Source: Isoalcanivorax indicus (lineage in GTDB: Bacteria > Pseudomonadota > Gammaproteobacteria > Pseudomonadales > Alcanivoracaceae). From it: a stretch of 64,000 nucleotides of DNA. The stretch spans positions 620,001-684,000 of the forward strand of contig NZ_QGMP01000001.1 in NCBI RefSeq assembly GCF_003259185.1. The letters are read 5' to 3'. The translations under genes and the position numbers were made by a program. Below, piece by piece: positions 42,868-61,819 of the stretch (the stretch's first letter is position 1; every line of letters begins with the position of its first letter). The notes under the pieces are model-generated. The model saw only the letters and a program-made list of their open reading frames with translations. It was not told the DNA's origin and did no database searches.

Positions 42868-42986
42868 GGCCCTCTGGGGGCGGGTAAGGGTTTTCTGGAC
42901 ACGCCGTGAACCCATCCATGGGGGCTCTCGTTCGGCATCCATGCCTCTCGAAGGTCCAGAAAACCCTTACCCGCCCCCAGAGGGCC
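42868..42986 (-). repeat. Hairpin element copy 1 (locus-specific 33-bp arms, conserved core)
   Basis: Arms 42868-42900 and 42954-42986 are perfect inverted repeats of 33 bp. The 53-base loop holds the conserved core (42902-42947) in reverse orientation relative to the other two copies. It differs from them by one inserted base and two adjacent substitutions. No T run follows on either strand. Confidence 0.92.
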
Positions 42987-43082
42987 GTCACGCGCAGCCC
43001 GCTTAAAAACTTCCAGCCAACCAAGAGTCTCGTTCTGGCGACTAGCTACGAAGTGGCGTTCGTGTCGTTGGCACTGAACCAA

Positions 43083-43195
43083 GGACTCGGGGAGGGGTGA
43101 GCCCATCCAGAAGTGTGTGAGGCAGGATGCCGAACGCAAGCCCCCATGGATGGGTTCACGGCGGCTTCTGGATGGGCTTACCCCTCACCGAGGCC
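43083..43195 (+). repeat. Hairpin element copy 2 (locus-specific 31-bp arms, conserved core)
   Basis: Arms 43083-43113 and 43165-43195 pair over 31 positions with three mismatches, one of which is a G-U pair in RNA. The arm sequence is unrelated to that of copies 1 and 3. The 45-base core at 43119-43163 is identical to that of copy 3. Located 96 bases from copy 1. Confidence 0.9.
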
Positions 43196-43229
43196 GCGCT
43201 ACGAAGTACCCAAGGCTCAGTCGGAATAC

Positions 43230-61701: not shown

Positions 61702-61819
61702 GGTCACTCGGGGAGCGGCAACGCTCTCCAGGACTGTCGAGAGGCAGGATGCCGAACGCAAGCCCCCATGGATGGGTTCACGGCGTGTCCCGGAGAGCGT
61801 TGCCGCTCCCCGAGTGGCC
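61702..61819 (+). repeat. Hairpin element copy 3 (locus-specific 33-bp arms, conserved core)
   Basis: Arms 61702-61734 and 61787-61819 pair over 33 positions with two mismatches, one of them a possible U-G pair. The core at 61741-61785 is identical over 45 bases to copy 2, some 18.6 kb away, while the arms are unrelated. It fills the gap between the convergent hydrolase-PilZ and methyltransferase genes. Confidence 0.92.

Follow-up and report, generated by a model that had tools for sequence, protein, structure and literature searches.

The CsrB/CsrC and RsmX/Y/Z RNAs are encoded by one or a few genes per genome, carry many GGA motifs and have their own promoter. The protein side of such systems, CsrA/RsmE, requires an ANGGAN hexaloop with a conserved A and GGA, and two sites can be bridged when they lie 10-63 nt apart, with an optimum above 18 nt (PMC7652899). 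A less familiar RNA, TwoAYGGAY (Rfam RF01731), was listed by Weinberg et al. (2010) for gut, gamma-Proteobacteria and Clostridiales (PMC2864571); both of its loops fit the CsrA motif, and CsrA binding has been predicted in Clostridia (PMC4333381). RF01731 and rsmX share one Rfam clan.

The 64,000-nt stretch of the Isoalcanivorax indicus genome analysed here (the window) contains three hairpins that a first-pass annotation, made from the sequence alone, had described as a family with an identical core in the loop and a different long stem at each locus. Reading of the sequence together with computed arms bore out all three hairpins, with 33/33, 28/31 and 31/33 paired positions, and the common 45-base core is as that annotation described it (Table 1). 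What it had missed is that, on the opposite strand, its loop forms two hairpins and that the RNA belongs to a known family. The strand to read is the reverse complement of the core, on which a long stem, P1, bears the small hairpins P3 and P2, giving the sense layout 5'-P1-(C/U)GU-P3[ANGGAN]-CG/CA-AGCCCCC-[ANGGAN]-GGGUUCACGG-CGU-P1'-3'. Predicted folding energies of copies 1, 2 and 3 are -91, -76 and -88 kcal/mol on the GGA strand, which folds slightly more stably than its complement in 3/3 cases. Copy 1 was scored by our covariance model R1 (see below) at G000:C1:662891-662963:-, G000 being the I. indicus genome, while the best ungapped stem of copy 2 is 28 bp long at 43086-43192, and the site of copy 3 is also occupied in genome G005 (ortholog L347).

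Table 1. Hairpin elements of the window and their parts (window positions).
Feature	Position	Strand	Remarks
Copy 1 (type A)	42868..42986	- (sense, GGA)	Left member of inverted pair; 33/33 bp arms; R1 78.8 bits
Copy 1, P1 5' arm (sense)	42954..42986	-	Computed arms
Copy 1, P1 3' arm (sense)	42868..42900	-	Computed arms
Copy 1, P3 loop AUGGAU	42937..42942	-	Read from sequence
Copy 1, P2 loop AUGGAU	42914..42919	-	Read from sequence
Spacer of the copy 1/copy 2 inverted pair	42987..43082	.	Resembles spacers of other pairs in the genome
Copy 2 (type B)	43083..43195	+ (sense)	Right member of pair; 28-31 bp arms; R1 76.7 bits
Copy 2, P3 loop AGGAU (5-nt variant)	43124..43128	+	Read from sequence
Copy 2, P2 loop AUGGAU	43146..43151	+	Read from sequence
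Copy 3	61702..61819	+	Single; private arms, 31/33 bp; R1 71.2 bits
Copy 3, P3 loop AGGAU	61746..61750	+	Read from sequence
Copy 3, P2 loop AUGGAU	61768..61773	+	Read from sequence

The link to TwoAYGGAY comes from a paralogue elsewhere in the genome (G000:C2:39312-39430), which RF01731 matches at 51 bits in an alignment that takes in the outer stem and both loops; six further loci are matched below the threshold, at 29-40 bits. At the Rfam gathering threshold of 43 bits, the Rfam scan of the window was empty, with no RF01731 match to the window copies. As such, these are filed as paralogues of a formal member rather than as Rfam-called members. The elements do carry two AYGGAY-type hairpin loops on one outer stem, strictly AYGGAY in both loops of copy 1. 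The 51-bit match (locus L185) was missed by wider cmscan runs, presumably because of filters, and was found in a short run; annotation based on Rfam may under-report the TwoAYGGAY family. Sub-threshold Rfam matches to microRNA families reflect only the long stems, and intrastrand triplex and BoxC motifs turned out on reading to be unrelated. A literature search with the core sequence itself retrieved no relevant paper.

Searching the genome with the core, as the first-pass annotation had proposed, returned 37 copies by pattern search, and the covariance model R1, built from an alignment (A1) of 83 copies all from other genomes, found 80 copies in 54 clusters. The good pairing of each arm with its partner generalises, with 76 of the 80 copies having arms of at least 25 bp and at least 85% Watson-Crick pairs. 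The reported lack of resemblance between arms holds inside the window, where pairwise identity is 50-68%, but not genome-wide: of the 78 long-armed copies, 65 resemble at least one other copy in their arms at 80% identity or more. The number of such relatives is 31 for copy 1 and 12 for copy 2; copy 3 has none and is one of 13 long-armed copies with private stems. The main arm families are A/A2, B and C, joined by about a dozen private stems. Since the three window copies represent three different arm families, the impression of a separate stem for each locus arises mostly from the sampling of a single window, and the locus-specific stem model, which was to be given up if the arms proved to be related sequences, fails for most copies.

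Both the pairing of the helices and the strand on which they are kept can be read from the copies. Across the 83 sequences from other genomes, standard pairs fill 92.2% of pair cells, against 67.7% in shuffled alignments, and the covariation score is 0.622, against 0.165 for shuffled alignments and at most 0.118 for slid registers. Covariation is found at every pair of P1 and at most pairs of P3; P2 is nearly invariant in this alignment because the search pattern fixed it. In I. indicus, P2 does covary, occurring as GCCCCC/GGG/GGC (34 copies), GCCUAC/GUA/GGC (23) and GCUUAC/GUA/AGC (9). On the tandem GA in a stem that marks TwoAYGGAY, the copies are divided: P3 of most copies here has the form GA-GGC..GCC-GA, and it is fully paired instead in many copies from other genera. 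In all three helices, P1, P3 and P2, compensatory changes preserve the pairing.

Mismatches in P1, counted on the GGA strand over 90 non-redundant arms with symmetric scoring, are G-U in 88 cases and A-C in 21. Elements with more G-U outnumber those with more A-C by 51 to 8 (p = 9e-9, copies of the same lineage not being fully independent). In the inner eight pairs of P1 the two kinds are even (9:9), so the excess comes from the outer stem. With G-U so far above A-C, the mismatches indicate that it is the GGA strand that folds and is under selection, most readily as RNA, with single-stranded DNA as the alternative. Such an asymmetry would not be expected had the arms been kept similar solely by the double-stranded palindrome or by template-switch correction. 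Among the options raised by the first-pass annotation, that of selection maintaining pairing only is therefore supported, by strong covariation in all helices and by the one-strand excess of G-U over A-C.

On their long stem, the elements present two ANGGAN loops, each with a C-G closing pair, and the two GGA triplets lie about 20 nt from each other. The P2 loop is ANGGAN in 80/80 copies here, with all four bases occurring at each N. In the P3 loop of the copies from other genera, which lay outside the search pattern, the GGA positions are conserved in 83/83 (G), 80/83 (G) and 80/83 (A) and the first A in 72/83; the closing pair is C-G in 78/83 (A1) even though the remaining P3 pairs vary freely. 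The GGA-GGA spacing is 20 nt in 66/80 copies here and 101/123 elsewhere. R1 was itself trained on GGA loops and is biased toward finding them. Hairpin loops of this kind at a bridgeable distance are what a CsrA/RsmA-binding RNA displays, and the loops and spacing match the published CsrA/RsmE requirements closely, from which we infer that the elements may bind CsrA. Against this, the stems of CsrA ligands obtained by SELEX mostly have no more than 4 contiguous pairs, and P3 of the elements can reach 7-10. Also against it, mutation of GGA motifs did not abolish binding in RsmU, another 3'UTR-derived RsmA-binding RNA, from Xanthomonas (PMC7694677). As to whether the elements might themselves be RsmU, inspection by eye showed no comEA-like neighbour next to them in the Xanthomonas loci examined.

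The csrA gene is present in I. indicus. In the class sample it was found in 37/38 near-complete element-bearing genomes and 175/198 others (one-sided p = 0.07), and because csrA is nearly universal this co-occurrence is weak and non-discriminating, though consistent. One genome (G232; 98% complete, 270 contigs) has nine elements and no detected csrA, which may reflect a gap in the assembly or a genuine departure from the CsrA idea.

The copies lie mainly at gene 3' ends. By our own gene caller, 24 clusters in this genome are convergent, 22 tandem and 4 divergent, and in other genera the counts are 16, 45 and 8; taken together, the excess of convergent over divergent sites (24:4 here, 16:8 elsewhere) gives p = 1.3e-4. 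The placement of all copies between convergent genes, as the first-pass annotation had it, is thus correct for the window and extends to 24 of 50 clusters genome-wide. Elements here typically begin about 25-45 nt past a stop codon. In tandem contexts in other genera, 21 are sense and 24 antisense, showing no sense bias. An intrinsic terminator has a U tract directly after its stem, and such a tract (at least 5 T in the 8 positions after the stem) follows only 3/140 sense and 9/136 antisense copies, and none of the three window stems is followed by a T run; the earlier judgement that the elements are not standard intrinsic terminators holds for the window copies and across the counted copies alike.

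Neighbouring copies are arranged with great regularity. In this genome, the sense strands diverge in 26/26 inverted pairs; in other genera 33 pairs are so arranged, against 6 of the other orientation, 4 of which fall between successive pairs or array members. Two Xanthomonas loci (L147, 2503-3342, and L082, 830-1510) hold arrays in which inverted pairs follow one another, two or three in a row, at regular spacing. Another locus (L316, G008:C1:93500-96500) holds, at 788-2223, a tandem array of six direct repeats spaced 226-229 bp apart where R1 finds a run of elements. A motif, CTACG(A/G)AG, is conserved 3' (sense) of type B copies and of several private-arm copies with otherwise unlike arms, for instance at window 43200-43208, at G000:C1:1195316 and from C2:236400 onward; on the complementary strand it reads CTTCGTAG, similar to the GTAG tag of REPs. 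In the spacer of the window pair (42987..43082), no sigma-70-like promoter was found by consensus.

Element matches occur in 46 of 274 sampled gamma-proteobacterial genomes. Within the genus, copy numbers are 80 (68 at a stricter E limit), 43, 21, 17, 0, 0 and 0. Elsewhere, with 150 candidates scored per genome and counts that are lower bounds, there are at least 122 copies in Stenotrophomonas maltophilia SJTL3, at least 147 in Xanthomonas arboricola, at least 149 in Saccharospirillum salsuginis and at least 81 in Marinobacter flavimaris. The lipA/carboxypeptidase site that holds copies 1 and 2 lacks an element in the congeners G001 and G003 and has no palindrome there; at the element-less sites the flanks are too diverged for a target-site duplication, the mark of a MITE insertion, to be read. 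Comparison with orthologs in G005, a sister species, revealed several kinds of change. A double compensatory change distinguishes the arms of C2:236283 from those of L343; whole hairpins are replaced at 2192614 and 755241; and at G000:C1:1629411-1629518, compared with L338, arms and flanks are the same and the apex is inverted. From these comparisons, the arms undergo compensated drift as well as exchange among copies, and the apex can flip, the last seen in one case; recombination between the element's own arms can account for such a flip. At G000:C1:755241 and its counterpart L344 in G005, one species has a type B single and the other a different inverted pair, which suggests repeated use of the same site or replacement of the whole unit.

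Candidates for what moves the elements were also considered. No Y1 transposase was found in G010 with its 25 copies, and G013 and G027, both free of elements, do have one; the sole Y1 gene of I. indicus (C1:836342) lies more than 20 kb from the nearest element. Across the genomes compared, a Y1/RAYT mobiliser is thus not associated with the elements. The apex had no match in plasmid and phage records, so those collections give no sign of spread by plasmids or phages.

We consider it probable that the elements are an amplified, REP-like RNA of the TwoAYGGAY type whose sense transcript would serve as a two-site landing pad for CsrA/RsmA. Sense transcripts would arise by read-through from flanking genes or from a start of their own and would offer both loops to a single CsrA/RsmA dimer; the long, GC-rich stem would keep the two sites in position and shield the RNA from exonucleases. 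Copies could then act as scattered CsrA-binding sites or decoys. They would spread as units, whether single hairpins or inverted pairs, by some mobiliser, after which the arms would drift by compensatory change and swap between copies, which would explain the unlike stems of three copies in one window. Genomes may in this way carry CsrA-binding decoys that spread like mobile repeats. A bolder version, which we hold only tentatively and lean against, is that a mobile RNA family has put dual CsrA sites at tens to more than 100 gene 3' ends, forming a dispersed, genome-encoded sponge that sets CsrA/RsmA activity, turns over within a genus and has an apex that can be flipped via its own arms. The main weakness of the CsrA mechanism is orientation. 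In an inverted pair, whichever member lies nearer to the gene is read in antisense, so that read-through from either neighbour meets the non-GGA form first; together with the lack of sense preference among singles, this implies either that the RNA comes from its own start or that a CsrA role is secondary.

The same lack of sense bias fits selfish, REPIN-like mobile repeats without a CsrA role, whose apex would be the recognition structure of the mobilising enzyme, as single-stranded DNA or RNA, and for which gene 3' ends would be the least harmful insertion sites. High copy number, patchy distribution and strict pair orientation agree with this, as do the element-less sites, the tandem array in G008 and the replacement of whole hairpins at orthologous sites, and REP dimers and REPINs show this same behaviour (PMC3733652, PMC3116915). 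We nevertheless think it rather unlikely, given that it does not predict the exact ANGGAN loop with C-G closure and two free N or the near-constant 20-nt GGA spacing, and given that Y1, the usual REP mobiliser, does not follow the elements across the genomes compared. Bidirectional 3'-end elements, that is, very stable hairpins stopping transcription or protecting both convergent mRNAs from 3' exonucleases, would account for the convergent excess, the position about 40 nt past stop codons and the GC-rich stems, perfect over 25-33 bp, which can fold on either strand. Their stems, however, far exceed those of intrinsic terminators and are not followed by a U tract, and a terminator or stabiliser needs neither conserved ANGGAN loops nor a strand-specific G-U excess, which makes this account improbable. 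Hardly any credence is left for the first-pass proposals of a core that enters pre-existing palindromes at their apex or of an insertion that makes an inverted copy of the local flank, giving each locus its private stem. The minority of private arms, among them those of copy 3, speaks for them; most arms, however, are common to copies at unrelated sites, the element-less sites have no palindrome, and arms drift with compensation between orthologs.

TwoAYGGAY has been an orphan RNA family whose proposed CsrA role is a prediction, and with its discovery as an abundant non-coding repeat in Stenotrophomonas, Xanthomonas, Marinobacter, Saccharospirillum and this genome, the CsrA question becomes testable in culturable bacteria. 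If CsrA binds, its titration would be spread across the genome and differ between sister species, tying a mobile repeat to a global regulator. If it does not, some other reason, likewise unexplained, must account for the conservation of a three-helix RNA fold in a mobile repeat.

Compared with known systems, the elements share with TwoAYGGAY the long outer stem and two AYGGAY-loop hairpins, and the gamma-proteobacteria are within its reported range. They differ in that the window copies and most others score under the cut-off and in that the second loop is often ARGGAY or the 5-nt AGGAU; the dozens to more than 100 copies per genome, the inverted pairs, the shared and exchanged arms and the apex inversion are undescribed for TwoAYGGAY in the literature found. 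Like CsrB/CsrC and RsmX/Y/Z, they have ANGGA in hairpin loops at a spacing that lets one dimer bridge two sites, but each element has two sites, copies are many, and no promoter was identified in the copy examined. With REP, BIME and REPIN sequences they share palindromes in high copy at the 3' ends of genes, inverted dimers that face one way (26:0 here, 33:6 in other genera) and a patchy distribution between relatives (PMC3733652, PMC3116915). In contrast to REPs, which are 20-40 bp palindromes with a GTAG or CGTC end tag, they are 113-119 bp long, with a GTAG-like flank confined to the type B copies and some of the private ones; they also have a conserved three-helix RNA apex, selection on one strand and no association with a Y1 transposase. 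The elements are, on this comparison, an amplified, paired, REP-like form of the known TwoAYGGAY RNA.
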